DNA of 64,000 bases from Isoetes taiwanensis (lineage: Eukaryota > Streptophyta > Lycopodiopsida > Isoetales > Isoetaceae): positions 1,625,787-1,689,786 of the forward strand of contig JAJEKV010000013.1 in assembly GCA_021234155.1 (NCBI GenBank). Reading direction: 5' to 3'. The notes beneath the pieces are model-generated. The model was not told the origin of the DNA, searched no databases, and saw only the letters and a list, made by a program, of their open reading frames with translations. Made by a program: the position numbers and the translations under genes. Positions within the stretch are counted from its first letter, which is position 1; each line of letters opens with the position of its first letter. Positions 5,159 through 57,233 of this stretch are shown here, in pieces.

Positions 5159-6864
5159 AAAAAAATTTCGATTTGTATTCAAACCATCAGAGTACACAGA
5201 ACAAGTACTGCCTCCCACGAGGCTGTATACATGAAAACCACGTATACGGATAACAAGTTGACAACATAAGATAACTATACACACGCATGCTCCGCCAGCT
5301 ATCAAACAGCCTGCACAAGCTTCCACGTGTTAGTACATGCACAAGAGTTATCTAGTAAGGTCAACATGAAGCAACGACTGACGGATTGCAAGAACACACA
5401 TATGAAATCCACCACACGCACCATAGCATCTGCCAAGCAGACACACCCCACCATATCTAGATAGTACGTCGTCTAGAACCCCCGCGCTGGTGGATCCAGT
5501 GTAAGGGAGAACTGCAAGCACATAAGAACTTAGAACACTAGGCTGTTGACTACGTCCATCACCGTCCCATACCGGCGATAGATTTCATCTCACCAGTATC
5601 AGGAGTTCCTACACGATAGAACACATTTGTCTAATCATGTGCTTGCATAAACACTCCCTTATGATAAACAACACCCCGTGCTTATCTACTCTGCACGGAT
5701 GCTCATATAAAGCTCACGATAATAAATCGTATATGCAGAGTATAACGAGACACTCTTATAGCGCCAGACTGTTGACGTCTACTTAGTACCGTCCCATACC
5801 AGCACTAAGCATCCATCTCACTAGCAATAAGAGGCCTCCCAAAGGAACAAGCCTACACTTGTTCCAATACAGAGGAGAAGAGATTAGAAGAAAGAGGCCA
5901 AGGGCAGCACCCTCTCGTTGCTACTGCAACCTGCTGTCACAAACACTGGATAAGACACCCAGGCTTATCTCAGCTTACACTACAGAGCTTTCGGAGGGGG
6001 AGGAGTCAACAACCCGGGGGTATTGGTTTTAGAGTGTTTCCGGTTCTGTCCACAAACCTACACTCATCACCACGAAGCATACAATTATGGTAGTCTTTAT
6101 ATCTCCATATTCATTACCGTAGATATTGCCCAAAGGGCATGCCGGTTAGCCCAGCACAAGACTCACCAGGATAAAGCTTCTCTGCTGCAACACGCAGTCC
6201 AGCAGGTACCAATACCTCCTCCTTTAGATTGCTAATGCTTTCTTCAATTAGTTAACTCCTTCCTGCTCCAAATTCCGATTCTCTGTAGCTTTCCCCAGCC
6301 TCCAGCCTTCCGGGCTTGTTGCTTGGTTCTCTCCCCAAACCGGCCTTCTCTTCCTTTTCTTCATGTAACCGTTCCGGCCTTCAGAACCTAGGCTCTCCAA
6401 TCGTGGCTAAGCCACGTGGCACTGCCCTAGAAGGGCAGGTGATCTTGCCGGATTACAATTCCGGCCCCATCCGAGCCTGATTCTGCTGCCCCATCCACTG
6501 TTACAGGCCGTGGCCCAGCCACGTCCAACCAGCCCCGATTTTCGGGTGCTTACATATTAATGTCCAATGGTTTTTAAACCATTATAAGGTATTTTAATCC
6601 TTTAACATAACTATTGCCTTGTTATCATTTATTCAAAGGAATAAATCTTAATGGTCCAAGTTATTCCATAACCATTACAACAAGCCACACCGTTCCCTAG
6701 TGTCCCAGGCCATGTGTACCACACCGCCTTAAGCTAGACTAGGGGCGTATGTGACCACAACCCATCTATGGCCATAAATACCATATAACATTTCGTTATG
6801 CCAAACTTTCAAATGCATGCATAATATTTCAAACAATGGTCTGTAAAAATATTTAGGCATAACA
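5159..6864 (-). repeat. 3' LTR of the minus-strand gypsy element
   Basis: It matches the right-hand LTR over its length and ends on the plus strand in GGCATAACA, so on the minus strand it starts TGTTATGCC. The outer end is truncated and begins AAAAATTTCG instead of TGTTACGAACC. Many differences from the other LTR fall at CAG/CTG or CCGG-like positions, for example CCAGCTATCAAACAGCC against CCGGCTATCAAACGGC. Confidence 0.88.
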
Positions 6865-6890
6865 TTACTCCCCCCCCAGATTCTTGTCCT
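6865..6890 (-). promoter_or_regulatory. Polypurine tract of the minus-strand gypsy element
   Basis: Directly inside the left LTR, the plus strand reads TTACTCCCCCCCCAGATTC. On the minus strand this is a purine-rich CTGGGGGGGGAGTAA preceding TGTTATG. This is the expected plus-strand primer site next to a 3' LTR. Confidence 0.75.
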
Positions 6891-6936
6891 CAAGAATCAG
6901 CTCCAGACCATTGAGCCATAACATCCGGATATTGAG

Positions 6937-7610
6937 TCATGCAACGACGACTCTCCCCGTCGCCGCGGGGAGATGTCTATGCTTCCATTTCACCGTAAAT
7001 TTATCTCGGTCTCTTTGGCGGATCCGGTGACTATTCGGGAATTCCGCGACAACATTCGCAGCTTTTCCCCGTGAGCGGGTCGTGAATCGCTCACATGGAA
7101 AACTAGATGAATGTCCACATTGATGGAAGTTGCAACTTGAAGGCAACATCACTATATTTCTTCAAAATCTTATAAGGACCATTGTATCTTTGGGAGAGCT
7201 TTTGGTTTCTTCCCCCAAGCAATGGCAATATTGCTTTCTTTTTCAGATTTAAGGGAAGACTACCACTAAGGTCGCTTATCGACCCTCATGCGGCTTCGAC
7301 GGGGCTCTCGACAAATTGGCACGTGCCCTTGCCCGATCCTCGGGCCCGTCTCATATGCAATTGACACAACCCAAGTGTCACATCCATGCCTTCAAGCATA
7401 CTTATAGCAAAGACATCGTTTTCAGCCCTTCAAAACCAAGCGATGCGGGTCCTCACGGGATTTCTCCCAAACATAGCCACAAACGGGCTAGTCTTGATGC
7501 TCTGTTGGAACCCATTATTGTAAGCAAAACTCTACAATTGGCAAATAGTCCTCCCATCCGATTGTCGAAAGGGCCACATAAGATCTCAAAGATATCCTCC
7601 GTAATTTGAT
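6937..7610 (-). pseudogene. Integrase C-terminus and chromodomain-like end, degraded
   Basis: The minus-strand segment continues downstream of the integrase core with broken frames. Near 6950-7010 a frame shows KFTVKWKHR followed by HLPAAT, resembling the VKWKGLP..ATWE core of chromovirus chromodomains. That domain directs integration to modified chromatin in the family. Upstream of it, several frame changes prevent a continuous reading. Confidence 0.5.
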
Positions 7611-8816
7611 TCACTTTTTTCCGGTTTGCCCATCCGTTTCCGGATGATCTCCACTAGAGAACTGAAGAGTGCATTTTAATGCAGAGAACAATTCGCGCCA
7701 GAAATTCCCAGTGAATTTCACATCTCGATCGCTTACAATAGCTTTGGGTAATCCAAAAATAGGAAATACATGCTGCATATAAGCCTCGGCCACCGCCAAG
7801 CCATCAACATTCTTTGTCAGAGGTATAAAACGTGCAAACTTCGTCAACCTATCCACAATGACAAGTATCTGAGTATAGTGATGCACAGTACGAGACAACT
7901 TTACAATGAAATCCATAGAGATTTCACTCGATCTCTCCTCTGGCACAGGCAGAGGTTGCAAAAGCCCTGGAGTCTTGCCTCGACTCGCTTTAACCTGCTG
8001 ACAAGTCTAACAAACTTTTACATATTCCCGCACATCCTCTTTCAAGCTAGGCCAATAAAACATTCTTTTGAGCGATTCATATGTTTTCCATTCACCTCCA
8101 TGCCCAACATAAGGTGCATCATGAAATTCGCTCAATAATTGCTTTCTCAAAGTGTCCACAACAGGAATATAAATACGTCCCTTATGATACCAGAGTCCAT
8201 TCTGGATATCCCAAGCATCTGGTAACTTGGATATATGCTGCATACTCAAAATATAGGCATCCAAGGCATATGCTTGCTTAATCTGTGACACCAATGCAAT
8301 TTCACATTGAACCATCAGATTTACTTCCCGAACCCTAGAGAGAGCATCAGCAACATGATTCTTTTTCCCGGGAAGATGTTCAACATGAAAATGAAATTGA
8401 GAAAGAAAGTCCAACCCGTCCAACCATCTTGCTTGCCTTGGACTTACCTCGACCTGGCTTTGCAGGAATTTCAATGGTTTATGATCGGTGTAGACCACAA
8501 ACTCACACTTATTACGGAGATAATGTTTCCAGACTTTGAGCGCATGAACCATGGCCAGTAACTCCTGCTCATAAGTGGAATAGTTCTTCTCAGCAGCATT
8601 GAGTTGGCGACTTTCATACGCCACTACTCTACCATCCTGCATGAGAACAGCACCAATGGCATAACCACAAGCATCTATGTAAACCTCATAAGGTCTACTC
8701 ATGTCTGGAATCAACAAAATAGGCGCTGAGGTCAGCAACCTCTTCAGCATATCCATTGCCTGCTGCTGCTTCACTGTCCATTGCCACTGGACGTTAATTT
8801 TCAACAATATAGTCAA
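7611..8816 (-). pseudogene. gypsy pol: RNase H and integrase core
   Basis: Reading down from 8816, the RT thumb (SAPILLIPD) leads into RNase H with YIDACGYAIGAVLMQ, YSTYEQELLAMVHALK and TDHKPL. Next is the integrase zinc region with FHD...GHGG and a Cys pair split by one in-frame TAG at 8004-8006 (VC stop TC). The same frame then continues into the catalytic core with MDFIVKL and SDRDVKF, the first two acids of the DDE triad. It breaks near HPETDGQTGKK, where the third acid is expected. The TAG probably replaces a glutamine codon. Confidence 0.9.
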
Positions 8817-9490
8817 AGCAGCTGCAATCTTGGCAAAATCCAGACAAATCTGCGATAATAACAGGCCAACTCCAAGAAACTACGCAACTCAGATACATTC
8901 TTTGGCACAGGCCAAGAGCCGAATGTTTTTCTTAGGATCTACGCTTTACACCTTCAGCATATACAATGTGGCCCCAAATATTCCACATTGCTTTCAAAAT
9001 TAGCACTTTGACATCTTTGCATACAACTTATGTCATGCGGCGAAGTTAGCACAAACGCAAATGATTCAAACGGCTCATCAAGGTTTTGCTATAAATTGGG
9101 ATATCATCTAGAAATACTTCAACAAAAAAATATCAAGACATCCTGCAAAAACCTCATTCATCATTCGGAAAAAGTAGCGGGGAGCATTCGTTAGTCCAAA
9201 AGGCATCACCAAAAATTCAAAATGACCAAAAAGTGGTCACGAAAAGTCTTATGGACATCCGACTCCTTCACCCTTATCGGTGATAACTGCTGCGTAAATC
9301 AACTTAGAAAAATATTTAGCTCGTTAATCTATCCATAATCTCGTTAATTTCTAGGCAAAGGGTACCTATTCTTGATCATTGATCTTATTCAAGGCCACGA
9401 TAATCAATGCACATCCGCATTGATCCGTCCTTCTTGACTAGAATGCGGGAGCACCATAAGGGGATTTGCTAGGTCTTACAAACCCTTTGG
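8817..9490 (-). pseudogene. gypsy reverse transcriptase region, heavily degraded
   Basis: The interval between protease/RT-start and RNase H should hold the RT fingers and palm. Only short fragments remain, such as plus-strand bases whose complement recalls the phrases preceding FL.DDIL. No frame runs through it. It is assigned by position within the element and by those fragments. Confidence 0.6.
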
Positions 9491-10285
9491 CTAATGACTC
9501 ATGAACACCTTCTTTACCTCCTCTTGTTCCAATATGGACAATCTATAAGGGCTACGAAACACATATTTGGATCCAGGCTCTAAATCAATCTCATGTTCAA
9601 TCTCTCTAGGTGGAAGGCCTTCAGGCAGTTCCTCTGGGAACACATCCTGAAATTCATACAACAGATCCTGCAACTCTTTTTGGCCTTTTGAATTCTCCAT
9701 GACCTCATTATCAGCACTCATATGACAACACTCAAAGGCAGGATAACATTCATCAATAAATAGAAGAAAACATTGATTGGAAGATTTACGTACCAGTTTC
9801 TTGACCTGAAGCGACGACACGATCTTGGAAGCTCCCGTCAAAGGACTCCCCTGCAGATAGATCTCACGTCCATCGTGCTTCAGCGTCACCTGGTGAGTAT
9901 TCCAATCTATTGCAGTAGGTTTAACCCGCTGCAACCATGTTATCCCCAGCACCACATCATACCGACCAACATCCAAGAGGTCAAAATCAAGCTTTTCCTG
10001 GTATCCTTGAATACACAAGAGCACCCCAACAGCTTTACGATCCTCCACTTGAGAATCGTTCACAAAAGGCCCATCTACCTTGTACTTATTGGTCTTTACA
10101 CAAGGTAGGTGCAGTTCTTCCACCAACCTAGAAGAGATAAACATGTCAGAAGAGCCACAATCCAATAACACAACAACGTTTCGGCCCATGATTTTGCCCA
10201 AGAATCTAATCACACGCCCAACAAACATGTCCATGATGTCCTTGCTCATGGGCTTATCCGGTATACCACGGCTCTTCCATGGCAA
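9491..10285 (-). pseudogene. gypsy aspartic protease and start of RT
   Basis: A long open stretch of 264 codons carries the retropepsin active-site block as LLDCGSSDMFIS, where D-S/T-G is expected; here D-C-G-S-S. VVLGITWL follows, then a linker and the typical RT entry (FPEELPEGLPP.REIEHEIDLEPGSK). Protease processes the polyprotein. The D-C-G variant is seen in some plant gypsy copies; activity is not implied. Confidence 0.85.
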
Positions 10286-10348
10286 TGGTGGACCTATCTT
10301 AGATTCAATACTTCTTCACCTTTTTCGATCACGTTTGCTTTCTTGTTA

Positions 10349-11376
10349 TCAGCTTTCTTGTTCATGGCTGAGAGCATTCACGACCAATGTGCCGGGCTCC
10401 CCACACCTATAGCAGAAAAATCCCCTTTTCGGGACCACCGGACTTAGAGGTAGCTTACGCTTCTTGGACTCTCCACACTGCAGACTTAGACTTAGGTCGC
10501 TTTCGGATTTTCGGACTTTTCTTCTTGAAAAACCTATTTTTCTTCTTCGAGAACTTTCGAGACGTCCTCTTGAAGGATTCATCCTCTTCCCCAAGCTGAC
10601 AAGCCAACATCGTTGCCCTCTCAAAATCCTCGGGCTTGAACCCGATTATCTGCTTCTTGAGAGCAACACTGGATAGACCACCTAGAAAGAAATCAACATG
10701 TTGAGCCTCGGACAAGTCTCCAACCCTGTGGATATAACCCTGTACCTTATTGATATAAGCACTAAGAGAACTGCTTACAGTACCGCAGCTTCTCAAGCGC
10801 ATCACGAGCATCATGCTAAGGTGCATACTCCCCAATAAAAAATCAGACCAGATATTCACCTCCTTCAGCCGCATCTGCGCAATAAACAACCGCGCCTTGT
10901 CACCTTTATTAGTAGCCTCAAAAAAGGTCTCAAGCTTGTCAATCCAAGCCATCGCCTCCTCAGCAGTGCCTTTCCCAACCCAATCCGGGATCTTTGTGCG
11001 CTCGAGACTGTGGATGTCCTCCTTGCTCGATCCGGAACTCTTCAGTAACTGCTCCACAGCAGCACTAGCATCAGGTACATCCGGGTCCACCACCACCACC
11101 ACCGCCGCCGGAGACTTCCCTTTCTCCACAGACTTCCCTAGGCCATCCGTGCCAACAAGGTCTCCAATACAGTTCTCATAGCAGTTTGTCTAATACAGCC
11201 TTGAGGCTCTGCTGCACCCCCAGCAAGCCCTCGCCCCACTTCGTCTGCATGGTCTCCAAGTTCTTCTGGGTTTCCTGTACGCGAGCAGCTAGCCCTCGTA
11301 CATCAGGTTCCTCCTCCATAGGAGTCACATGTCCCGCTATAGGATGTGTGCCTACACTAGTCTCGCCGTGCTCCAT
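10349..11376 (-). pseudogene. gypsy gag with zinc-knuckle remnant
   Basis: The first ATG after the PBS is at 11376 and opens a short glutamine-rich, coiled-coil-like stretch ending at 11176. After a frame change, 11129-10455 encodes a retrotransposon gag core (WVGKGTAEEAMAWIDKLETFF, ARLFIAQMRL, VDFFLGGLS). Another frame change leads to a CYRCGEPG nucleocapsid knuckle whose histidine and last cysteine are lost. Gag packages element RNA. Confidence 0.8.
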
Positions 11377-11407
11377 CTCAGCTACTCAAGGTCCAAGCCG
11401 CAACTCA

Positions 11408-11420
11408 GGTTCTGATACCA
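11408..11420 (-). other. Primer-binding site (initiator tRNA-Met type)
   Basis: The plus strand reads GGTTCTGATACCA, i.e. TGGTATCAGAACC on the minus strand, one base inside the LTR edge at 11422. This matches the usual plant initiator-Met PBS TGGTATCAGAGCC except near its end. It fixes the element's orientation. Confidence 0.9.
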
Positions 11421-11421
11421 C

Positions 11422-13156
11422 TGTTACGAACCAAAATTTTAGTACCAAAAATTTCGCTTTGTATTCACATAAAACCATCGTAGTACACAAGATAACAAAT
11501 CGCGCCCCCACGAGGCTATATACATGAAAACCATTATACGGATAACAAGTTGACAACATAAAGATAACTATACATACGCATGCTCGGGCCGGCTATCAAA
11601 CGGCGCACAAGCTTCCACGTGTTAGTACATACACAAGAGTTATCTAGTAAGGTCAACATGAAGCAACGGTGACGGACCGAAGAAGAACACACATATGGAA
11701 TCCACCACACGCACCATAGCATCTGCCAAGCAGACGCTAACCCCACCATATCTAGACAATACGCCGCCTAGAACCCCCGCTATTTGGTGGATCCGGTGTA
11801 AGGGAGAACTGCAAGCACATAAGAACTTAGAACACTAGGGTTGACTACGTCCATCACCAGTCCCATACCGGCGATAGATTTCATCTCACCCATTATCGGG
11901 AGTTCCTGCTAACGATAGAACACATTTGTCTAATCATGTGCTTGCATAAACTCCCTTATGATAAACAACACCCAGGTGCTTATACGCTCCGCGCGAATGC
12001 TCATATAAAGCTCACGATAGTAAATCATTATATGCAAAGTATAACGAAACACTCTTATAGCGCCAGGTTGTTGGCGTCTACTTCTAGTACCGCCCCATAC
12101 CAAGCACTAAGCATCCATCTCACTAGCAATAAGAGGCCTCCCAAAGGAACAAGCCTACACTTGTTCCAATCTGAGGAGAAGAGATTAGAAGAAAGAGGCC
12201 AAGGGCAAGACCTTCTCAAGTTACTCTTGCAACTTCTTGTCACAAACACCGGATAAGACACCCAGGCTTATCTCAGCTTACACTATAGAGCTTTGAAGGG
12301 GAAGGAGTCAACAACCGGGGGTATTGGTTTTAGAGTGTTTCAGTTCTGTCCACAAACCTACACTCATCAACACGAAGCATACAATTATGGTAGTCTTTAT
12401 ATCTCCATATTCATTACAGTAGATATTGCGGGAGGGCATGCCGGTTAGCCGGGACAAGACTCATCGGGGATAAAGCTTCTGTCACGCAACACGCAGTCGG
12501 CCCGGTACCAATACCTCCTCCTTTAGATTGCTAATGCTTTCTTCAATTAGTTAACTCCTTCCGCTCCAAATTCGATTCTCTGTAGCTTTCCCCGACCTCC
12601 GGCCTTAGGGCTTGTTGCTTGGTTCTCTCCCCAAACCGGCCTTCTCTTCCTTTTCTTCATGTAATCGTTTCCGGCCTTGAACCTAGGCTCTCCAATCGTT
12701 GGCTAAAGCCGACCGCACTTTACCCTAGAAGGGCAAGGGTGATCTGCGGATTACAATTCCGCCCCATCCGGCCCGATTCGTTGCCCCATCCATTTATATA
12801 GGGCGTGGCCCACCACGTCCAACCAGCCCCCGATTTTGGTGCTTACATATTAATGTCCAATGGTTTTAAACCATTATAAGGTATTTTAATCCTTTAACAT
12901 AACTATTGCCTTGTTATCATTTATTCAAAGGAATAAATCTTAATGGTCCAAGTTATTCCATAACCATTACAACAAGCCACAATTGTTCCCTAGTGTCCCG
13001 GGCCATGTGTACCACAAGCCTTAAGCTAGACTAGGCATTATGTGACCACAACCCATCTATGGCCATAAATACCATATAACATTTCGTTATGCCAAACTTT
13101 CAAATGCATGCATAATATTTCAAACAATGGTGCGTAAAAAATATTTAGGCATAACA
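11422..13156 (-). repeat. 5' LTR of the minus-strand gypsy element
   Basis: It runs from TGTTACGAACC at the internal edge to GGCATAACA at the outer edge, giving TG...CA ends on the minus strand (TGTTATGCC ... GTAACA). Length is 1735 bp. It is collinear with 5159-6864. It should contain the element promoter; no core motif was singled out. Confidence 0.9.
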
Positions 13157-14741: not shown

Positions 14742-15134
14742 CTTTCACTGTCTGCTGATATCTTGAGGTTCTGGCCGTCAGTTGTCCCCAGGGAGTCTGA
14801 GCCAAGGTAGAGCCGTACTTATGGTATATTGCCTATGTTATCTTGTGGTTGTATTGTTATTTAGTTGATGATGATGGATGGGCTATCCTTCGTGGTGGTA
14901 TATTATTTTGGGCATGATTGATGTGTGCTAACATGTATGTACGCTTCCGCTGCATAGGATTCCCATAGAGGACGTGGGACAAATGACATCTCCGTGTTTC
15001 TCGCCCGGACGCTTGGCCATCCCGAGTGATCCGAGTTAGACGGAGGGCCCTTCCATGGTGATGTAGTCGCCACGAGGAGGGTAATTCTCGTATTTATATG
15101 ATGAAAGCATCATATAGATTCAGGGAGCATCACA
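14742..15134 (+). repeat. 5' LTR, 3'-terminal part only
   Basis: From CTGTCTGCTGATATCTTGAGG to GCATCACA it matches the end of the 3' LTR (about 29940-30397). The first 1.2 kb or so of the LTR is missing. It has a single copy of the segment that is tandemly duplicated in the 3' LTR. Confidence 0.8.
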
Positions 15135-15135
15135 G

Positions 15136-15147
15136 TGGCATCAGAGC
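15136..15147 (+). other. Primer-binding site
   Basis: TGGCATCAGAGC lies one base after the LTR end (CATCACA-G). It differs at one base from the initiator tRNA-Met site TGGTATCAGAGC. The leader to the first ORF, 15148-15709, is AT-rich and non-coding. Confidence 0.85.
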
Positions 15148-15709: not shown

Positions 15710-16975
15710 ATGAACATGGGCCGTACCCGCGGTATCCTTAGCTACGGTAACCTCAGTGCGCCACATATATTCGCCGAGCTCGGCGAACAACTTGTTAGTA
15801 ACCCCGACAAGGTGGAGCTGCTTTTGATCGAGCTCGTGCAACGGTTTGTCGCCGGACGTAGGGTCCCTTACCCTAATTTCTATTTGTCCGAGCGCTTTCT
15901 GCTGAATTTCAACCTCCTACGACAACCCTACATATTGGTCGAACAGCCTGACCAAGTCCTGATGCACGTCAAGTTCTACCCTCCCTCGTGTATGGAGGTT
16001 CCGAGGATGAGGCCATCTGGGTAGAGGCCGAGAGGATTAGAGAACTCGCCCGAGGGACGACACCCGGGAGATGGAGAGGGGAGACCCGAAGGTCCGGGGT
16101 AAAGAGTACGTCTACCTGGGGGATGGGCGAGCCATCATAGATGGGAAGCCTTTTGACCTTCCCCCCTACCAGTATGACGAGGCCACCCAGAGTTTCGTTT
16201 GGAGTGAAGTCCCATCATACCTCGCGGTGGATTACCTGATAGCCATTCAGTTGGATATGCAGGCCAGTCCAGACAGCTATCATGTTGAGCTGCTGAAAAG
16301 GGTCACTGCTCGCCGCCTCGCGGAGGTGGAAGAGCGCATGGAAGCTGCCTATGCTGTGCAGCAAGAGGCAGAGCGGGCCGAGCAGCAATGGCAAGCAGAG
16401 GAGCTTGCCAAGCAAAATTAGGACCAGCAGCAACCCCAACCAAAACCAGAGCAGAATACGCAGTGGGGCCCTGACCAGACTGAGACCCCTGTTGTGAAAC
16501 GAAGGCAAAAGTCTACCGCCCATAAGTCAGGACACGCCTACAAAGAGAAGCTTAAGACGGTTGGGGGCATCGAAAAGGCCACGAGCTTCAACCATCGGCA
16601 GGATCGAGTGGATGCAGCCCAACCTCGGCCGGTGTCAGGGGGCAGGACCCTGCCCAAGAAGCCGACGCAGCCAAAGAAGTTGCACCGGTATAGGCCTGGC
16701 ACCATGGCATTGAGGGAGATTCGGAAGTACCAGAAGACAACTGAGCTTCTGCTACGGAAGCTCCCCTTCTAGAGCTTGGTCCAGAGTTAGCACAAGACTA
16801 CTGGACCGATCTTCGGTTCCAGACTTTTGCTATGCTCGCCCTATAGAAGGCCGCCAAAGATTATCTGGTAGCCCTTTTTGGGGATACCAACCTCTATGCT
16901 ATTCATGCCAAGAGGGTCACGATCATGACCAAGGATCTGGCTCTTGACCGAAGGATTCGGGGACACTATAATTAG
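15710..16975 (+). CDS. Element ORF1: unknown N-terminal region fused to a histone H3 domain
   Basis: From ATG 15710 an unrecognised protein runs through two frame changes (near 15985 and 16065). A Gln/Glu-rich, probably coiled-coil stretch follows (16320-16420), ending in an H3-like domain. From about 16503, RQKSTAHKS recalls the H3 tail RTKQTARKS (K4, K9 and S10 positions kept). A longer basic spacer leads to LHRYRPGT at 16680, then [48 protein letters not shown] and RRIRG, ending TAG 16973-16975. The fold is complete, with no loop-1 insertion, so it is like canonical H3 rather than CENH3. Breaks are TAG at 16419, 16770 and 16844 (the last two at H3 Gln68 and Gln93) and one frameshift near 16782-16795. 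H3 identity secure; role as chromatin mimic or tether is inference. Confidence 0.88.
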
Positions 16976-17200: not shown

Positions 17201-18327
17201 ATGGAGACCCCTAGCCTCCTCCAATGGTACCAAGATGGAGAACACTGGGATCCTCAAGTCCCATTCAACCTTCTTTAGCCCTTTTTGCTCCAAAAGGTGG
17301 ACCTTATCACTAACATGCAGGCCCACCTGGATTATGCAGCTTTCTTGAGTTCTATATTCAAGAGATGGTACCCTATGTATCCCCATAGGGGATCCATCCC
17401 AGCTTTACTTAGAAAGGGCCGTTGTGAGAGAGATATTAGGAGGCGGCTCCCATGCCTCTCATATTCTCACGGGGAAGCTCGGATGGGGTAGGAATCTGCC
17501 TGTCTTGATGCATCAGGGCCAGCAGTACTTTGAAATGAATTTTGCGCTGGCTATACTCATGGATCAATACGTGAATGATGAAAATTTGCCAGCAGAGAAG
17601 GGCAAGGTGCCAGTACTCTCTGATGACAACGATGATGAGTACACCCAAGAGGTTGACTTCGCTGGGTGGAGGCAGCTAGCAGAGCAGATGCCCCTACACC
17701 GAGATCAGGGGGCCAGGCTTACTGGCTTGGATGCTTCCCGATTATCCACCATCAGGGCTAGGAATACCTCCTATTGGAGGATATCATGTGGACATACCAT
17801 GTGGTTGCTGACCTTAAGGCCAAGAGGAAGGCACGTGTGTTATATAGGAGACCATCAAGCCAGCTGACACCCTCTTGAGGCTGCGAGACCTTATGTTACA
17901 AGAACCACCATCCCAGCCACCTGACGAAGCTTTTGTTGCTATGAGACCCCACGTCCCAAACATTAACATGGTAGATATCCCTTCAGAATCTGATGAAGAA
18001 GGGGAAGATCTTTATAACAACAGGGATCATCTGAAGGAAGAGAAGCAGGAACTTAAAGAGGAAGATGTCACCATGGACCTCGACAAGGAAGTAGCTACCT
18101 CTGTCATCTTAGAGGTTAGTGCTTTGGGAAATCACTTTACTTGCTTCTTCCTTTCATCTCTAAAGCAGGGCCAGGTCCTCTTTGTGACATGGGACCTAGC
18201 CCCAGAGGCAGAAGCATCATGGTGGGTCCGTGCATTGTCCACCTTGGCAGGCCATAAGAAGCTCCCATATCGCACATTCACATATGTGCTTGTGCGGCGG
18301 GACTTTGCTTTGACCGCCCTAGGGTAG
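17201..18327 (+). pseudogene. Element ORF2, unknown protein
   Basis: An ATG at 17201 follows a CT-rich leader (TTCCTTCTTTGCTCC...). The reading (LLQWYQDGEHWDPQVPF, MHQGQQYFEMNFALAIL, an acidic DDNDDEY patch, later a Glu/Asp/Lys-rich stretch near 17990-18090) continues across one stop and two or three frame changes to TAG 18325-18327. I do not recognise the family. The acidic and charged region could bind basic proteins such as histones, but this is speculation. GTTAGT at 18115 and CAG at 18168 could bound a 55-bp in-frame intron. Confidence 0.5.
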
Positions 18328-18701
18328 GATATAGCGCCATGGATGAGCATGAAGCTCCTTGTGGCCGCTCCTTTGGCCACACGCCTTATCCTTCCGAGAT
18401 TGCTTCTATTGCGGCACGTACCATCAGCCCCGGAATTACTCTACTTCGACACCGTCATCCACCTCCTATGCCAATGGATCATGATGGAGGACGTAGTTCG
18501 TGAACATAGTTCTTTTGAGTTATAATGTGTGGCCTTCGGCCATTATGATATATGTATTATTTATATATGCATTTGTATGCCATTTTAATACAAATTTTGG
18601 GTATTTTTAGATTGATTGTCTCTCTCTTTGATAAATCCCTTATGCATAGATTATAAGTCATTGATTGTGCATCTACTGCGCGGTCTATTACAGGGACAAG
18701 C

Positions 18702-19043
18702 ATGTCACATTACACCACTAAGGGGTGGAAAATTGTCATGTTTTTTCGGGATAAACCTATCCACAAGTTGCGACGCACTATGCGAAAGAGTTGGTCCTAC
18801 TGGAATAACACATATGAAGAAGCATTCCTCAATGTGGATGATCACCTTTGGGAACTTTATCGAGCAAGGAACAATTTGTTCAATCTCTTGATCATAAGCC
18901 CGACCATGGAATATCAGGATCTCATCCTCCGGGCTTGGCACAAGTATAATTTACTATGGGCTGTAAGGGATAGTACCTGTCATTCGATACTGAATCACTT
19001 ACATCTCCAGTTGACAATACTTATGTATAAACATCTTGTGTAA
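18702..19043 (+). CDS. Element ORF3, small unknown protein
   Basis: An uninterrupted ATG-to-stop frame of 113 residues lies after a possible splice acceptor (TATTACAG at 18685-18693). It is rich in aromatic and basic residues (RRTMRKSWSYWNNTYEEAF, DDHLWELYRARNNLF) and shows no membrane segment or known motif. It shares strand and spacing with ORF1 and ORF2. It could be an exon of the same gene as ORF2 or spurious. Confidence 0.4.
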   Translation: MSHYTTKGWKIVMFFRDKPIHKLRRTMRKSWSYWNNTYEEAFLNVDDHLWELYRARNNLFNLLIISPTMEYQDLILRAWHKYNLLWAVRDSTCHSILNHLHLQLTILMYKHLV

Positions 19044-22000
19044 ATTAAAATTTCACATTCTGTTTGTCCGTTCGGGCATTATATTAAATGTAGCATTAAG
19101 TTTTACGTTAATATCAAGCATTTCCTTCTTAATGGTCTTATCTATCTTATTAATTTGGGTTTTTCTGGTTTGAAGGAAAACATTTTTGGAATTTTTTTTA
19201 AGTCATTTTCTAAAGGTATTGGAGAGCTTAAACGCCGGAAAAAATTCTCGATTATCCAAAAATCGAAGAATTTTCTTTCCTATGATTTTGAGTTTTGGGT
19301 TGGGCTCTTTCTATCGGATTGCAGGTGGCGAGGCGGAGGTGCATGCTGATTCGTCGCCTGCCTACTTGGTTATCGTCATTCTCAGCCTATGGCAGACGTG
19401 GATACTACTTATGATGCGCCAGAGGGTTTAGAAGAGATGATTTTTAGAATGCATGCATTACAATTTCGGCCCATAGCTTCAGAGCTACCTCTCCGGTAAT
19501 TCGTGTCAAGTAATTTCGTTTTTGCCTTCTTCGTCTTTGAGTCGAATGCATTCTTCTGTCATTTTTAGAACTTGCTACTTGAATGTGAACTGGAGTGTAG
19601 CATCGCTGAAGTTTTTCTTTACTTGGAGCATGAGCATGAAAACCCAGCTTATTCCTCTTTGGCTGCTTCTGTGTGAAAGATTTGTCTCTCTCTTGGCAAG
19701 AAGGCAACATCTGATTCTAAGCTACAAAGAACTCAGGCTTACTTTGAAAAATGCTCCTCTATTTTTCTAACAATAATGTACTCTAGAACATGTTTCAAAT
19801 TATGCCAAAAGATTTGCTTCACATTACTGCACATTAGTATTCAAGTCTGAAGTTTTAACTGGCTTTGGCTTTGATGTATCTGCATTTCTAGGAATTTATA
19901 CAGAGACGTGCAACGGGGCTTTGCAAGCATTATTGCAGGCGAATCTTAAGCTTCATTTTTAACTTTAAATTTATTTTGTTGTTGAAGCAATCTATCTAGA
20001 TGGAGGCCATATAGGCGTCTATTTCTTATTCTTACTTATTTGATGCTTATTCTTTTTCTTTGATCTCTTCCTTATTCTCATGATGCATAGTTTAAGAAGT
20101 AGATGGCTAGGTATACTTCCACGATTGGAGATGCATAATTTGATGAAGGGTTTTCTACTCTTCCACTTCCTGTTGTATTGTTGTTAGATACTGACCCATA
20201 GCCAATAGCACAATAACTTTTAAACCTCTGGTAGATATCTCTCTGTTCTTATGTGTTCCAGCTTAGTGTCTGCAGATTGTTCTTATGATGAGTTCTAGAT
20301 TAATGTAATAGGGAATATTTCAAGCTTAGTTGCATTTGCAAAAGCATAAATGATATTCCAAAGGATGTGGTTAGTGCTTTCAGCTTGCAGAGCATATCAG
20401 ATTATTAATGATACAAACATATTCATGCTATTTGTTTTTTCTTGCATGTGAAGGTAAATTCCTTTCGCAGAAGGATCTCTCTCGCTAAGTACTCAAAATG
20501 GATCTGAGAATGTTTTAGGGTTTCTTTGCCACAGGTGCAAATATCATTTCATGTATGTTTGATCTCTAGGAACAAGACTCGCGTTTTTGTATAGATATGC
20601 AGTTCACTATCAGAAATTTGAGCTTATTTTGCCGTGGAGTCTCAGCAATAGGGTTTATTCAGGAGCTTTAGGTATTTGCATGGATACCTGTATCCGCCGC
20701 CGATGGTAGTGAGAAACATGGTAAATCTCTAACTTCCTTAATGTTTCTGATCCTACATGTTTTGCCTGGGATCCGAACTCCAAAGGAGGAATTGGAGAAA
20801 CAATATCCTCAGTCATGGAGGTATTTATGACTGCATGTCTTTGCAAATTTGTGATGCTATTTGAAGGATGAGCAGGCAATTATTTGTTCTTTGCATTTGC
20901 CAGGTGTAGCAGAACAACACAATCTCTTAACAATAGAGGTAATTATTATATTATCCCCCCTAGATGATGAGCTCATGCTGCCACTGTTGAAGCCCAGGAT
21001 GTGGATGTTTTTTTCGCCATTGTTTTGTGTTTAGTTTTCTAATCCGTTGCGGTAGTTCTATTCTTCCATTTTTGCTGCTTCTATTCTTTTATTGGTATCT
21101 CCGCTCTGGATATTCTCATTCAACTCCAGCCATATTGGCTTCTTAGTCTATTTGTGAGCCTGCAGAAGAGCTTGAGCATACAAGGTCAGTGCCAAGATTC
21201 TCTTAGAATATTCTTATTTAGATATTTGCATCCAGGGTTCATTTGGGGTTTTTGTGTAATGGTCATGTTGTAAACAAGTACAACAATAAGTGCGGCTGGA
21301 AGAAGTTAAGTTATGAATAAAACCATCTGTAATTGCACTCCCTTTTGAATATTGATCTTGAACTTTTCAAGATATAACCTTATTGCCCTGGTATGTTTTC
21401 CTTTGCTTGCTTCCTCAAAAATTAAGTTCTTGAGGTTCTTAATGTTATTCTCTTGAAATTGCAAGCCGCAAGTCAATAAAGCTTAAGGTGGGTGATGTTG
21501 CTTCTGATTTGTAGCCCAGATGTTTAAACTTGATTCTAATTTTCAGTTACATGCAATTATGTTGATTTGGTTGTGATTATTCTAGGAAGTAGTTAACTGC
21601 ACAAATTTAGTTGAGATGCATGGGCATGATGGACTGATAATTGTTTTGTTGGTGTGCATGCAGCACAATCTTTTGTGCTGAAGGATAGCCCAGAATGCAG
21701 AGCTCCATGCAACAAGCATCCAAATTGAGACATTATTATTCGTGATGGAAGTGAGAAGGTATAAGATGTAAGTCTATTTCCCAGTAAATTGCAAGGATAT
21801 TGGTATAGATGCGGTAGACTAAGAAATCAAAGTTATTTCTATGTGTCTAAACTAGCTTTGCTATGCAGACTCAGAGGATACAGTGCAAGATGTTACAAAC
21901 ATGTTGTCAACACACATTGTGAGGTAGTGCTTGATGATTTTAAAGAACTTCACGTCATGGGCATCAAATGTCACGTATATAGTTATGAGCACATCCAATA

Positions 22001-23278
22001 GTTTCTTCCTTTCTAAACGAATATTGTTATTTAGTTGAACTGCAGGACTGAGTTCATTAATTATGCAGACCTCAGGGAACATGCATTCTTGCAGGTTCAT
22101 ATACTGTATAGACTATAGCAAGAAGAGCCAAAGTTCTATTGAATTCGTGACATGTATGGGTATATTCGAAAATAGAAGTGCAAGTTTAGTGCTAGCTTCA
22201 AGACTTGAAATCGAACGAGTTTGGACCTTACATAATACACAAGGCCAACACACTTTCCACTGGCTGAAATTTGTCTATGCATTAGACAATGAAAAAATAT
22301 GATTTACATGAATGACATTTCTCAATAGAAGTAAAAAATGGTGTATGCAAATACAAGGACTTGACAAAACATAGGCAACGGACTTAAAGCAGAATGGTTA
22401 TCCTATTGATAGGTTTTTAAACAAGGTTTATATCAGTATGTATGCATAGAACACATTTCATGAAGTAGAACTTTGCTTGGAATCCAAATTTAGCTTCATT
22501 TTTTTGTTGCAGTTGTTTAGAGTTGCTCTCTGGCTGCGTTGTGCGCTCGACTCTGTACTCTGTACAAAATTCTATACTCTGCACTCTAGAAAGTTACATT
22601 ATAGCAACGAGTGGTCCATTAAGTTTCCATTACTTTCGTAATAATAAATGCATCTATTATAACTGACTTTACGCATTGCCCCATGCAAACTTCATCTTGC
22701 ATGTGAATGTTGTTGCACGTGAATGTTGTTACTGCAAATGTTAGTGAAAAGTGTAGGGTTGATGACCTTTGCTGTAGCTCCCATAGGGCTCATGTTATGA
22801 CTCTTCACCGTCTGGAAGTGGATGGGCTCTATTCATCTATATGCACTATTCTCTAAATAAAAAAAATAAACAGAGATGTCTTGTGATTGTGAAGGATGCA
22901 TATCCATCTTTTATGCAATGGACATCTGTGTATGACAGCCATGTATTGTGAGAGCTATTCCATGGTTCAAAGGGATATCTTATAATGCTTGAATTATGTC
23001 AAATATTAATGGGCGTCATTAGCAAATTCAATATGTAACACGATGGACGCAACAATGAAGCAACATTTTCTACCATACAATGCCCATATCAGTTTTAATA
23101 AACAATTCAGGGTAGCCCAATCGTCTTATAAAATGGAGTATTCCTCCTTTCTATAAAGTGAGAGTCCAACTTGATAACTATATAGAGAGAGCCGTATAAG
23201 CAACCACGATAAAACAAACACCCCAGCCCTCCCCGCGTTAAAACACTCACTTCATCTTTGTATAAATCCAGCACTAAA
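19044..23278 (+). other. Non-coding stretch with intron/exon-like remnants
   Basis: About 4.2 kb without a long ORF. A short exon-like frame begins at ATG 19393 (MADVDTTYDAPEGLEE...) and ends at a GTAATT donor near 19498. After TTTTTAG at 19569 comes another exon-like stretch (LLLECELECSIAEVF...EHENPAYSS), broken by one TGA. More TTGCAG/TTTCTAG acceptors followed by short open stretches occur near 19891 and 20905. This looks like a decayed fragment of an intron-containing gene I cannot name, perhaps captured by a transposon. The rest is AT-rich with no identified feature. Confidence 0.35.
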
Positions 23279-23306: not shown

Positions 23307-23328
23307 TTATAACAATGTTGGAAATGTT

Positions 23329-24480
23329 GTGCTTATCTCGATCTTATCTATTTTAGACGGTGCATGTCCCCCTCCATGGGCGACATTCGTGCAACCTGGT
23401 CGTCTCATTCCAGAGCAGGAGCTCATACTTATGAATCGTCAGCTTACTGAGCTCCAAGCATATGTACTTCATAGTAATCCACCACTAGCACCGCAGGAGT
23501 ATGGCCCTGAGATTCACACCTGCACCACCTGCAAATCAACAGCCACCACCACCTGCACCAGTACCTGTTTCAACTATATCCACCTGCGCAAAGCGTACAT
23601 GGAGCAGTTCATCATCTGATGCCAATTCTGAACCATTTGACTCGTCAGAGTCCTCTGATTCAACAGATGACCATGCTAAGACCAAGAAGAAGGACTATCA
23701 TAAGACCGTAGACTCTGCCATTACCACCATTTGGAAGAACCGTAAATTGGCTCAGTTCTCGGGTAAAACCATATCGGGTGTGGATGTCGAATCCTGGTTA
23801 GATGAGATGCATGAGTTTGGAAAAGAAAAGGATATCGGCAAGGTTGCCACCACTAACCTCATAGGGTCAGCCCGCATTTGGTAGAAGGGATATGCCCACT
23901 CTCATGGACTGCTCGAGGTAGATGCCGATACAAGATTTTTGCCAAAGCCTTCAAATCTCACTATGTACCCAGAGCTCATCACTGCCAATAAATCCAAACT
24001 TTTTACTGCCTGGAACTAAGGAATATGATAGTCCAAGTATACACGGATGAGTTCGTGCGGTTACGATTATATGTCTCTGGGATAAATGAACGCAAAGCAG
24101 TTAAGGGGTATATTGAGGGGTTATCCCCTACTCTCAGGAAGATGGTTCGAGCCATAGACCCCAAAACAGTAGCAGAAACCGAGGCTAAGGCTCTTAGCTT
24201 GGAGGAGGATAACCCTAAGTATCAACCGCCACGTCAACAAGGGCTATACACCATATCGGGGATGCTCGCCTAGCCCAGGACCTCCAATCCTCGGCCGAGT
24301 ATCAGAAGCAGGATAAAAATGTGTCCTTCACTCTACTAGATAAGTCCTCATATACCGCAGGAGCTTTTTGAGACATTTTGGAAGCCATTCCGAAGGAAGC
24401 TCGCAACCAGTTACGAAAGGACAGAGCTTATTTTCGGTGCTTTCGACCGGGACACTGTATGTAGGAGTGTCCCTATGTCA
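23329..24480 (+). pseudogene. gypsy gag with zinc knuckle
   Basis: A frame with a proline-rich N-terminus (PPANQQPPPPAPVPV) leads through a Ser/Asp-rich linker into a gag core (TTIWKNRKLAQFSGKT, VESWLDEMHEF, stop at 23882). The core continues after a gap with a capsid segment (VQVYTDEFVRL, YIEGLSPTLRKMV, TVAETEAKALSLEED). The nucleocapsid knuckle FRCFRPGHCM-stop-EC at 24430-24470 has lost its first cysteine. Gag would package element RNA; at least three breaks make this copy inactive. Confidence 0.85.
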
Positions 24481-24509
24481 CACAGGCTGCTCAAGTTGCT
24501 CTTGCCGAA

Positions 24510-25014
24510 GTGGATTGGGATGAAGCCATGGGTCCAACTGAACCAGAGAACGTTGCTGATGACAAGGCACCAGACTATATACAAGGTGAGTCTCACATTT
24601 ATGCCGCTATTGAGACAGGTCAAGCAGATAGTCAAGCTTCTATCATATCTACGGTTGGCCAAGTAGACCATAAACCCTTTATCATTCATATGGACATGGG
24701 TAGTACGCACAATTTTGCTTTCCCTAGAATGGCAGAAGCTTTACAGCTTACTCTTTTGAAGTCGAACACTGGCTAGTGGGGCCGTGCGCCATACACAAGG
24801 TCGACGTATCAATCTGAATATTCAGTTGCCAGAAGCACCCATTGCTCTAGGAGCCAAGATCATGGATATTGGTCATTATGACCTTATTTGGGCATGGAAT
24901 TCTTGGCTGCTGCAAAAGGCAAACATTGATTGTGAAAAGCGAGAAGTCACCTTTAATGCAGCTAATGGAGCTTGGGTAACCATAGCAGGTAAACCAATTA
25001 TTCCAATTATGTAG
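24510..25014 (+). pseudogene. gypsy aspartic protease
   Basis: The frame starting 24510 reaches MDMGSTHNF, the retropepsin motif normally D-S-G-S-T-H-N-F (serine here methionine), then stops at 24774-24776. The next frame from 24784 carries the flap and LG..WL-equivalent part (IGHYDLIWAWNSWLL). The two parts are separated by a frame change. Confidence 0.8.
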
Positions 25015-25023
25015 TGTATTTCA

Positions 25024-25850
25024 TTGCATCAGTTGGATAAAGCCATCAATAAGCATCAAGTTGCTTGTATTCTTAAGCTTGCATCAGTAGACACCAAATC
25101 TAAATATGAGAAAGTTATTGACAGCTTGCCTCAGGCTATAGCAGCTGTTCTTCGAGAATACCACGACCTCTTTCTAGATGAGATTCATAGGTTGCCACCT
25201 TTGCGAGGCGTGGAATGTGAAATTACCTTAGAACCAGGCACTAAGCCTACTAGTAAGGCTCCATACAGAATGAGTACACCTGAATTAACGGAGCTTAAGA
25301 AGCAGTTGCAAGAGCTTCTTAAGTTGGGGTTCATCCGACCGAGTGTATCACCCTTTGATGCCCCTATTTTATTTGTAAAGAAGAAGGATGGTACTTTAAG
25401 GATGTGCATTGATTATAGGCAACTGAACAAGCACACGATTAAGAATTGGTATGCTTTACCGCATGCCGATGATTTGGTGGATCAATTGCAAGGAGCTAAG
25501 TATTTTACAAAGATTGATCTTCGCTCAGGATATCACCAGATAAGAATTAAGGAGGATGACATCCATAAGTCCTGCTTTCCAGACACGCTATGGGCATTAC
25601 GAATTCACTGTTATGCCATTTGGACTAAATAATGCCTGCCACATTCATGAGGTTGATGAACGATGTTTTTCGCAAATATCTTGATGACTTTGTCATCATT
25701 TTCTTCGATGATATCCTCATATACAGCAAAACTTTAGAGGACCATGAGCGTTATCTTTGCTTGGCCTTGCAAAAATTGAGACGTCATGAATTTTATGCCA
25801 AGTTCTCCAAGTGTAGGTTTGCAACCACCAAGATTAATTATTTAGGATAA
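25024..25850 (+). pseudogene. gypsy reverse transcriptase
   Basis: It opens with the RT entry ([18 protein letters not shown]) and fingers ([37 protein letters not shown]), and palm motif A is present ([16 protein letters not shown]). A frameshift near 25575-25630 is followed by the catalytic aspartates in FFDDILIYSK at about 25700 and a TAA at 25848. RT copies element RNA into DNA. Confidence 0.92.
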
Positions 25851-26820
25851 ATTGTTTCTGCAGAGGGAATAGCCACAGATTTAGCCAAGATTGAAGCAAT
25901 AAAAGATTGGCTGATCCCAACAAATGTGTTAGAGGTCCGCAGCTTTCTCGGGTTGGCGGGATATTATCGCAAATTTGTTAAAGACTTTGCTAAGCTTGTC
26001 GCACCTCTTACGGACCTTATGAAACATGGGTTAGGGATTGGATGGCACACTGGAAAGACAAGATCCAGGCCAGATTTCAATAATTGAAGGATGCATTGAT
26101 GACCGCTCCAGTTCTCATCTTGCCTGATCCTCAGAAGGATAAGTGGGTTGGGTAAAAGCATGCTACGGTGTACCACTTTTGGAACCCTCAAAAGTACCTT
26201 CACTGGGTACTTTTAAAACTGGTACTTTCTGTTTTATCTTCCCATTAAAATCAATTCAAAACTTTTGAATTGAAGGTCAATAACATGTCAACCTATAGTA
26301 TAAGAGGATAACAATACTATTAGAGAATAAATTAATGAATCAACTCTCAAATTTATTGTTTATTGAGACAATTATGCAAGCTCCCAGTACCCAGTGCTGG
26401 GTACTTTTTTGGGTAGTTTCGCACTCCCTAAAAAGTCATTTAGATGGTACACCCTAGCATGCTTTCACCCGGTTGCCACAGATGCTAGTAAGATTGCTAC
26501 CGGTGGAGTACTAATGCAGGAGGGTAGGGTGATCACCTATGATTCCAGGAAGATGAATGATGCAGAACAACGTTACTCCACACATGACCAAGGATTGCTT
26601 GCCGTCGTGCGTGCCCTGCGCATGGCATTACTTACTTGGGAGACGATTCCGGTTGGATACAAATCACCAAAGCCTCCAATATATCTTTACACAAACCCAT
26701 CTCAATCTGAGACATCGATAATGGATGGAGTTTCTGGAAGAGTATGCTTTTGAAGTAGTCTATAAGCCGGGCAAGCATAATGTACTTGCTGACGCACTTT
26801 TCAGGTATCCATTGATCACC
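25851..26820 (+). pseudogene. gypsy RT thumb and RNase H, split by a MITE
   Basis: After the RT stop, [18 protein letters not shown] and LPDPQKDKW are readable up to 26149. The MITE occupies 26150-26470. RNase H resumes at VATDASKIATGGVLMQ (26475), with YSTHDQGLLAVVRALR, then passes frame changes to YKPGKHNVLADAL at 26760-26800. The codons on each side show the target was within the V of W-V-A-T-D-A-S. Confidence 0.88.
26150..26470. mobile_element. MITE, 321 bp, with 26-bp TIRs and 4-bp TSD
   Basis: The ends are GGGTAAAAGCATGCTACGGT... and ...CACCCTAGCATGCTTTCACCC. Over 26 bases the left end and the complement of the right end differ at two positions. The 4-bp direct repeat GGTT flanks it (26146-26149 and 26471-26474). 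Removing it restores the RNase H reading. There is no coding capacity. A 4-bp duplication is not that of hAT (8), Mutator (about 9), Tourist/PIF or CACTA (3) or Stowaway (TA), so the superfamily is open. Confidence 0.9.
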
Positions 26821-27890
26821 AAAACACATTGTATTGCTATTTCCACGCTCTTTAGCGAGTTTGGTAATCCAGCAGATCATGAATTTCAGGAGATATGGCA
26901 AAGTCTATCTGAGGAAGCCAGAACGGATAAGGAGAGGGAGGCTTTCCGCCATTATAAAAAGGAAGGTAATCTTCTTTATTACAAGGATAAGTTATGTGTT
27001 CTCGAGACATCAGGGGTTCCCAAGCTCATTTTCCACGATACACATAACAGTCCTATAGCGGGGCATGCAGGATTTATGAAGACATATTTCAAGATCCGCT
27101 CCAGCTATTTTTGGCCAGGCATGAAGAAACACATTGCCCGATACATTAAGCAATATCAAGTGTGTCAGCAAACAAAGGCAGAACAGTTATGCATCCCAGG
27201 GGAATTGCAACCCTTAGATGTCCCTAATGCAAAATGGGAAGTTATTACCATGGATTTCATCGTGGGGCTTTCGCACACCTTGAGGGGCTTTGATGCCTTA
27301 ATGGTGGTGGTCGATAAGCTTTCCAAAATGGCACACTTTTTGCCATGTCAAACCACAGATACTCATTAAATACTGCCTTGTTGTTCACAAAGGAGGTGTT
27401 TTGCCTTCATGGGATGCCCCATACCATTATATTGGACTGGGATCCTAAGTTTGTTAGTGCATTATGGAAGGATTTGTTTAGCACTATTACTAAGCTTGCT
27501 ATGAGCACTGCTTACCACCCCCAGACAGATGGCCAAACAGAGCATACCAATCGCGTAATTGAGAACATGTTACGTAATTATGTCTGGACTAAACAATCAC
27601 AATGGGCAGACTATAACCATTTAGTGGAGTTTGCCTATAACAGTACTAGGCAGGAGTCTTCAATGATGTTCTCCTTTTATGATCAATTATGGCTACCAAT
27701 GCATTACTCCAGACACGTGGCATAATCCAGTTTCCAAGGTGGAAATGTCTCAACAACTGCTTACAAATATGCAGGCCCTAGTCGAAGGAGTTCAATGGTA
27801 TTTGTTAGCTGCTAGCGCCTGCCAAAAGAGCCTTGCAGACCGACATCGGACACCGCGGGAATTTCAAGTTGGTGAGTCCATATAGCAAAA
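26821..27890 (+). pseudogene. gypsy integrase
   Basis: The zinc region (FHDTHNSPIAGHAGF ... YQVCQQTKAE) has lost the first Cys of the HHCC set (Tyr instead). The core has MDFIVGL (first D) and, after a frameshift near 27365, DWDPKFV (second D) with TAYHPQTDGQTEHTNRVIE (third acid). A further break near 27720 precedes FQVGESI. Integrase inserts the element DNA. Confidence 0.9.
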
Positions 27891-27897
27891 AATCAAG

Positions 27898-28359
27898 GTG
27901 AAGCAAGCCAAACTCAAAATTGGCAATTATAAGAAGCTTGCACCTAAATGGGCGGGACCCTTTGAGATAACCGAAAGGATAGGTTCTCAAGCCTACCGGT
28001 TGAATCTACCTGCGCATTTGAAGGTCCATAAAGTCTTCCATGTGAGCCTTCTCGAGAAGCATAACCCCGATCCAGAAGAGATTCTTGACACGCCAACACT
28101 TCTGGAGATGATGGAAGATCAATTGGAGATAATACCTGAGGCTCTCATTGATCGTGCATATAAGCAAATCCGCAGAACTCAAATCTTACAGTATTTACAT
28201 TTACCGACGGCGGATGCAACCTGGATTCTTAGAGCGGATTTGAACAAGACTTACCCAAACTTTATGCGAGAATGCCCGGGCCAAACCAAGATGCGATCAA
28301 CTAAAACTGTAATGGTAAGCGTCATGTTAGGAGTCCGGCAGGGATCATATGATAGTTAA
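27898..28359 (+). pseudogene. gypsy integrase C-terminus with chromodomain-like tail
   Basis: LAPKWAGPFEITERIG, AYRLNLPAHLKVHKVFHVSLL is the conserved integrase C-terminal (GPF/Y) module of gypsy elements. The downstream stretch PEALIDRAYKQIRRTQILQYL..LPTADATWILRADL resembles a chromodomain-type tail with the W..L/ATWE pattern weakened. The frame stays open to 28359. Confidence 0.82.
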
Positions 28360-41029: not shown

Positions 41030-41757
41030 ATTTGGAAAGAGCATTGCACTACATGGTTTGCGGTTGATTATTGCAACCCGAAGCGCACGATGCTTGCCGA
41101 TCTGATCACGAGCTTTTGCAACAATATTTCAATGGTTGTTTTTTCTCAAAAGATATGGGGCCTTGATTACTTTGGCCCAAGTGGCCGGTCATTACCATGC
41201 ACACATAAATCCCACCTTGGCACCAGGGCCCCAAGCTTATTTGCTTGCTTCATTGTCCAGGAACAAGCTTGTAGCTATTGCATCAATTCTCACGGGGTCC
41301 CACAGGCTACGGATTGAGACAGGTAGATGGGAGCGGCCGCAATTGCCACGAGAAGCGAGACTATGTGCCTGTTGCCAGTTACAGGTTATTGAAGATGAAA
41401 GCCATACTCTTCTGAGTTGCCCTGCTTTTGAGATAGTCCGGAATCATTTTTGACATTAGCATTCCATTCCACGCTTCCACAACTTCGAGGAGCACCATCG
41501 TGCATGACTTGGCATTATACATACTTGAGGTTCTAGATAAGCGTCGACAATTCTTTGAGCCCTCGGTAGTCATTATCTCCGCTTGTCTAGTATCATCATT
41601 TCGCAAAGGTTTTTCCTTGAAAACCTTTGGTGAGGGTTTTTTAATCTAGTAGTAATGATTGTACCAAGCCCATTGTATGGGTCCCATGACCTATTGGATT
41701 CTAAAGGTGGGCGTTAAAAAAACTATTCTATTCTATTCTATTCTATTCTATGAAGAA
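41030..41757 (+). mobile_element. 5'-truncated LINE copy A with zf-RVT end and (TTCTA)n tail
   Basis: The frame from 41136 encodes the C-terminal end of a LINE ORF2: LRIETGRWERPQLPREARLC, then ACCQ...IEDESHTLLSCPAF, i.e. a Cys/His zf-RVT knuckle. Related LINE 3' UTR follows (ATTGTATGGGTCCCATGACC) and then TTCTA repeats at 41731-41757. It is over 90 percent alike by eye to the inverted copy at 49683-50183. It is only the last part of the element, as expected for incomplete reverse transcription. Confidence 0.85.
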
Positions 41758-42232
41758 TGTTATATGATGCGCATTTTAAGCTTTAAATAGTAGTGATCTC
41801 TTCTTACAATTGTTGACCCTAAAGGGGCTTCATCACTAAATTCACCATTTGGACGCATTTGACCCCAACTTAAACATGCATGTTCCTCAAGCGATATTGT
41901 TTGTTCCTTATAAATTGTACTTTGAACAACTTTTATTATCATTTTGTAAAAGAAGCATATCGAATCAATGTCATTCATGTACTAATCAGTGCTCAAAGTT
42001 TGAAGTTAAATAGTTGCACTGTAGCTGGGGACAAGAAAAATTCGCCATCATCAGAATTTCATGTCATATAAATTTTACATTTTAGCCAAGTGGGAAGATA
42101 ACTAAAGGGCTTTATTTTATCAAATTTCGCCAAGAAAAAAATCTAAGAACTTTTGTTTTTCATAGGTTTAGCCAACCTTAATTTGAATAGAAAAACATTT
42201 AGGGCCGTTAAAATTTACCCTGATGGCGTAGA
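41758..42232. other. Non-coding stretch
   Basis: AT-rich DNA. No gene or repeat is supported on either strand. Confidence 0.35.
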
Positions 42233-57230: not shown

Positions 57231-57233
57231 TTA

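Follow-up and report, generated by a model that had tools for sequence, protein, structure and literature searches.

A histone H3 fold fused to the first open reading frame of an abundant chromovirus family in Isoetes taiwanensis

The window, the whole analysed stretch of 64,000 nucleotides from Isoetes taiwanensis, contains a member of a large chromovirus-type Ty3/gypsy family that consists, on the plus strand, of a truncated 5' LTR, primer-binding site (PBS), ORF1 with an H3 end, ORF2, ORF3, gag-pol and 3' LTR. Only the 3' part (~390 bp) of the 5' LTR is left (14748–15134); it resembles the LTRs of other family copies and is 88% identical (318/361) to positions 29936–30397, with a K2P divergence of 0.100 for the LTR pair. 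The 3' LTR (28991–30397, start uncertain at about 28850–29400) has an internal 82-bp duplication. No target-site duplication was matched by eye around the element, as would follow from the truncated 5' LTR. A PBS-like tggcatcagagc (15136–15147), read directly from the sequence, lies directly 3' of the LTR that recurs at the element's 3' end, and the motif TGG[CT]ATCAGAGC directly follows the LTR in five of ten other copies. ORF1 (15710–16975) starts 562 bp past the PBS, the distance already given by the first-pass annotation, which had rightly assigned an H3 fusion to an ORF that lies 3' of the PBS and 5' of gag in a long Ty3/gypsy element. By tblastn, ORF1 of the family copy L020 matches 15716–16963 in three pieces with 36%, 49% and 73% identity. 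ORF1 is followed by a decayed ORF2 (17201–18381; tblastn match to ORF2 of copy B1 at E 1.5e-76), an ORF3 homologue (18714–18992; tblastn E 2.9e-27 and alignment A3) and a decayed gag-pol with integrase and a degenerate chromodomain region (23326–28287), assigned with Pfam and mapped by using gag-pol of copy B1 and the integrase end of copy A2 as tblastn queries. The intervening 4.2-kb stretch at 19050–23250 has no counterpart in 20 fetched 10-kb pieces of family copies (blastn, E 1e-8) and is probably an insertion. ORF1 is broken by frameshifts and in-frame stops, and the window copy is thus a fossil.

A second Gypsy element lies on the minus strand at 5161–13156, with pol matches at 7617–10213 (27–37% identity to the family gag-pol) flanked by direct repeats (5161–6864 and 11447–13156, 90% identical) that are likely its LTRs. 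Minus-strand Gypsy pol fragments (43589–46126) at 41250–50183 are enclosed by inverted repeats (41250–41743 and 49688–50183, 89.5% identical), and 55208–63998 holds several repeat copies with 84–87% identity and a spacing of ~2.66 and 4.8 kb. A PTR2 (peptide-transporter) exon-like frame is located at 31350–31751, ~1 kb downstream of the element.

The complete H3-like fold described by the first-pass annotation is present at 16683–16966 (HRYRPGT to RRIRG, in two frames), as supported by the Pfam Histone profile PF00125, solved H3 chains and tblastn. PF00125 matches 16422–16769 (E 2.5e-8) and 16847–16972 (E 4.3e-11), both above the curated cut-off. In tblastn, a plant H3 query matches over two frames with E 3e-33, in three pieces with 25/29, 13/20 and 29/42 identical residues. 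The preceding basic stretch (16497–16682) is loosely H3-tail-like in an alignment with 29 other copies and host H3. The tail-like RQKSTAHKS reported earlier accordingly stands as a loose tail homologue in the family alignment but is weak alone, with 195 of 2000 shuffles equalling the best local match and 11 of 3000 the ordered match. The proposal that H3 and a Gln/Glu-rich protein share the same overall reading is likewise true of the family but not of the frameshifted window copy.

A Histone-profile search of the genome (1,658,258,908 bases, 1110 contigs) yielded 8704 first-look candidates, the best 150 of which were scored and were all above the cut-off. The first 15 of these 150 align to the profile from its position 2 onward and resemble host H3 (eight were read, all plain H3), while 36 of the remaining 135 have stop-free frames of at least 400 codons (hand count). 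Twenty of these 36, all among the best H3 matches, were picked for their long frames; in all of them the H3 fold ends one stop-free frame of 451–494 codons. From its N-terminus, the ORF1 protein (ORF1p) comprises a novel domain (N-domain), a linker rich in Gln and Glu, a loose homologue of the H3 tail and the full H3 fold. They split into subfamilies A (n = 7), B (n = 12) and C (n = 1), whose N-domains are only ~31–37% identical to each other's reference. The copy in the window stands apart, with 37% identity between its N-domain piece and that of the C copy L020. With the N-domain of L020 as query, 3431 first-look candidates were obtained, of which the best 150 were scored and every tenth from rank 5 to 145 was sampled (15 copies, subfamily C only). 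The fold adjoins the N-domain in 13 of these 15 copies picked by N-domain alone; in L050 and L063 no fold was found within 1.5 kb and homology ends before the tail. A degenerate pattern for IHAKRVTIM had 1397 exact genome matches (728 + 669), host H3 genes included (2 of the 50 matches printed with sequence), and its reversed control had none. The H3 segment is thus carried by many genome copies and not, as had been considered, by a single one.

Ten copies were fetched, in two 9.9-kb pieces each, for analysis of element structure. ORF1, ORF2, ORF3 and gag follow each other in this order in all ten. An LTR pair of ~1.0–1.4 kb with 90–96% identity brackets ORF1 in six copies (K2P 0.023–0.055 in the five measured), and no LTR pair was found within 20 kb in the other four. 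Protease, reverse transcriptase (RT), RNase H (RH), integrase and chromodomain are complete in six copies; C1 lacks RT and RH, and A1, B2 and B4 lack most of pol. One 1338-aa gag-pol frame contains Pfam capsid, protease, RT, RNase H and integrase domains, and PF00125 was detected in all three ORF1 proteins scanned (E 1e-41 to 1e-43). In the second piece of copy A3, repeats shared with the first piece at ~72–75% identity point to another related element within or next to A3. A chromodomain was matched by tblastn in seven of ten copies and by PF00385 at the integrase end of copy L032 (E 8.1e-10). The element is therefore a chromovirus; membership of the Ogre/Tat (OTA) elements is ruled out, and with it the comparison to Ogre-type elements drawn by the first-pass annotation. 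Judged by eye against an HP1 pattern, the chromodomain seems to be missing its first and third cage aromatics. Absence of the first and usually the third cage aromatic defines type II chromodomains in the excerpt of PMC3350952 used, and their binding partner is given as not known in that of PMC6317226.

The element folds share 80–85 of 95 residues with the host H3 gene L004 (20 copies). Synonymous differences to eight host H3 loci are 0.78–0.99, so that the capture of H3 is old. A capture of recent date from the host H3 genes read, or gene conversion by them, is ruled out, as is the identity to a host H3 fragment that had been named as a possible outcome. In a fold tree, which had also been proposed, the element folds grouped apart from host H3 in a poorly resolved split (support 86/0) and far from the single CENH3 included, and a CENH3 origin was rejected on this basis. 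Most copies are changed at positions 86, 87, 89, 102, 105, 107 (29/29) and 124 (27/29), and A107 is common to all 29 element folds. The eight host loci comprise two isoforms at positions 87–90, SAVL (n = 5) and TAVL (n = 3), both with Y41. Relatives were also searched for in viral contigs, and none was confirmed.

The dN/dS comparison suggested for the copies was made by the Nei-Gojobori method on pairs within subfamilies; most pairs that span two subfamilies have saturated synonymous sites. In the copies measured, strong purifying selection acts on the fold, with a dN/dS of 0.013 in A (21 pairs) and 0.039 in B (66 pairs), both from the first 20 copies, whose choice for high H3 scores and long frames lowers dN. 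Nine in-frame C copies of the N-domain-picked sample gave 0.037 (36 pairs), after L055, L058, L061 and L062 were left out because part of their fold is out of frame; in the 13-copy set that includes frame-shifted stretches, the fold value (0.166) exceeds that of the N-domain (0.075). N-domain values in the same copies are 0.152 (A), 0.116 (B) and 0.075 (C), those of the tail 0.151 (A) and 0.142 (B), and those of the linker 0.107 and 0.263. Partly decayed copies gave 0.214, 0.171 and 0.132 for gag, RT and integrase.

Residues of the fold were compared with host H3 in 29 copies, using residue lists that we take to represent the H3-H3 bundle, the DNA contacts and, with residues 86–90, the alpha-2 chaperone site. 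All 203 cells of the H3-H3 bundle, 412 of 435 cells of the DNA contacts (95%) and 2397 of 2751 cells over all fold positions equal the host, as opposed to only 61 of 145 cells at positions 86–90. The chaperone site is altered in all 29 copies: residues 87–90 are SAVL in host L004 and TAVL in L001, and FAIL (n = 17), HAIL (n = 7), FAVL (n = 3), FASL (n = 1) or FAFL (n = 1) in the element. We read the element H3 as putatively nucleosome-competent and delivered by an altered route. Conservation is much lower in the tail than in the fold. The ARKS-like core of the tail differs between subfamilies: C and the window copy have ARKS, ARKT or AHKS, A has TP.KS or TP.RS, and B has KP.KGG or RP.RGG in its place. 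A strict H3K9 mimic is thus not supported across subfamilies, and the pattern favours a role of the fold, in nucleosome or H4 binding, over mimicry of tail marks.

Two further conserved ORFs precede gag (ORF2 and ORF3, e.g. at L035:4964-6373:- and L041:5215-5721:+). Neither had a Pfam match in the relatives, and profile searches against PDB sequences returned only weak matches for both and none for the N-domain. ORF3 has a dN/dS of ~0.12, which suggests that it is probably functional; the value for ORF2 (0.453) is inflated by broken copies. No H4, H2A or H2B was detected by sequence in ORF2 or ORF3. The ORF2 C-terminus, which has an H2A-like look, was compared with H2A, H2B and H4 and rejected as a histone, since between 109 and 789 out of 1000 shuffles did equally well in each comparison.

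The H3 fusion in this chromovirus lineage is real, abundant and under selection, and its linkage to LTRs and gag-pol and its retained interface and DNA contacts are observed in the copies analysed. H4 pairing, nucleosome entry, delivery route and benefit are what we infer for ORF1p. In the explanation that we put forward, at roughly even confidence for and against, ORF1p pairs with host H4, enters nucleosomes and brings its N-domain to chromatin, perhaps as a tether for integration. The lineage would have captured a canonical H3 long ago, fused it behind its own N-terminal domain and kept it. Translation of ORF1, the first long frame of the genomic RNA, would yield a protein that pairs with host H4 through its H3 part, which thereby becomes a component of nucleosomes or H3-H4 tetramers; the changed chaperone-recognition site suggests that this incorporation is probably replication-independent. 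The N-domain would then sit on chromatin, and the most likely benefit to the element's own DNA would be a docking platform for the incoming complex of cDNA and chromodomain-bearing integrase; alternatively, new copies may gain a chromatin state that favours expression. As counterweights, the 340-residue N-terminal extension might hinder nucleosome entry, and the altered chaperone site could mean that ORF1p is not deposited. A bolder version, which we regard as quite improbable, has ORF1p as an element-encoded H3 variant deposited in a non-standard way, with the integrase chromodomain reading its tail, so that nucleosomes containing this histone would mark the landing sites of new copies or shield them from silencing.

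Retroelement particles are thought to form in the cytoplasm, and this weighs against a packaging role, in which ORF1p, alone or together with host H4, would coat and compact the cDNA (or RNA) of the element inside virus-like particles or pre-integration complexes. Such a role would resemble that of the histone doublets of giant viruses and fits the largely kept DNA contacts, the basic tail and the position of ORF1 before gag on the genome. We still consider it unlikely, given that H3-H3 and other fold residues are kept at host level, beyond the need of a stand-alone DNA condenser, and that the other core histones were not detected in ORF2 or ORF3. The partly surviving tail motif and the chaperone site changed in 29 of 29 copies could instead point to a decoy that sequesters H4, the chaperones of H3 or silencing enzymes that act on H3 and so weakens host silencing. 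The weaker constraint on the tail than on the fold (0.14–0.15 versus 0.013–0.039) and the divergent motif of subfamily B make this doubtful. That the H3 part is an inert captured fragment multiplied by transposition is very improbable: a fold dN/dS of 0.013–0.039 with large dS contradicts a lack of function, and the same fusion recurs in three subfamilies with strongly diverged N-domains, even if LTR elements commonly capture fragments of host genes (PMC7264820, in part) and a fungal hAT transposon multiplied H3 copies that were later inactivated (PMC6710886, in part). Plain H3 genes do occur in this genome, yet an accident of assembly or a host gene family of H3 genes and pseudogenes lying near LTR elements is hardly credible in view of the shared N-domain fusion, the constant ORF order, the LTR pairs, the PBS and the synonymous distance from host loci.

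The element is of a known kind, and its H3 component was without a description in the literature searched. Comparisons with published systems draw on portions of the sources cited. Plant chromoviruses (Tcn1, Galadriel, Tekay, Reina, CRM, Chlamyvir) share with the Isoetes family the Ty3/gypsy gag-pol order, an SH3-like domain and chromodomain at the integrase end and a PBS of the TGGTATCAGAGC kind, but in the Isoetes family gag is preceded by three additional ORFs, of which the first ends in H3. In the consulted part of a chromovirus survey, 'histone' occurs once, for chromodomains, and large eORFs are reported for non-chromovirus OTA elements (PMC6317226). Orchid Ty3/gypsy elements with an m6A demethylase domain also gained a host regulatory domain, theirs being an enzyme that acts on RNA and not a histone (PMC9289625). 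Fungal hAT DNA transposons of Pyrenophora and Pseudocercospora likewise captured and multiplied H3 (PMC3538342, PMC6710886); those move by cut-and-paste, whereas the Isoetes element is an LTR retrotransposon whose ancient N-terminal fusion has stayed intact in many copies. Single H3s encoded by DNA viruses (xenomavirus, Dishui Lake phycodnavirus, sylvanvirus) are 73–87% identical to host H3 in the fold and have in some cases longer N-terminal tails. Their altered alpha-2 site reads SAIL or TAIL, which places an isoleucine at 89, and they are believed to be incorporated into host nucleosomes (PMC9145170). The element H3 resembles them in its altered alpha-2 site and fold identity; those occur sporadically in DNA viruses, while ours belongs to a reverse-transcribing element of very high copy number and has a longer N-terminal domain. 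Orf1 of the nudivirus HzNV-1 also joins a long first part without known homology to a C-terminal histone region (PMC9145170). That region is an H4-H3 doublet of a DNA virus with 30–40% identity, whereas the element has a single H3 at ~87%. The terms 'retrotranspos' and 'retrovir' are absent from the part of that viral-histone review consulted (PMC9145170), and 'histone' is absent from the main texts of PMC7264820, PMC8566536 and PMC10541799. No description of a retrotransposon with a histone was found in the open-licence literature searched, and one may exist elsewhere.

Histones have been reported in DNA viruses and some DNA transposons, and none was found for a retroelement in the literature searched. 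In genomes of this type, transposon copies may distort counts of H3 genes and confound the use of H3 antibodies or the mapping of reads. Should ORF1p indeed enter nucleosomes, this would be a case of a selfish element that evolved an H3 variant of its own. This would offer a direct handle on site choice and silencing evasion of chromoviruses and a natural experiment on which surfaces of H3 are free to change (the chaperone site) and which are fixed (tetramer and DNA contacts).
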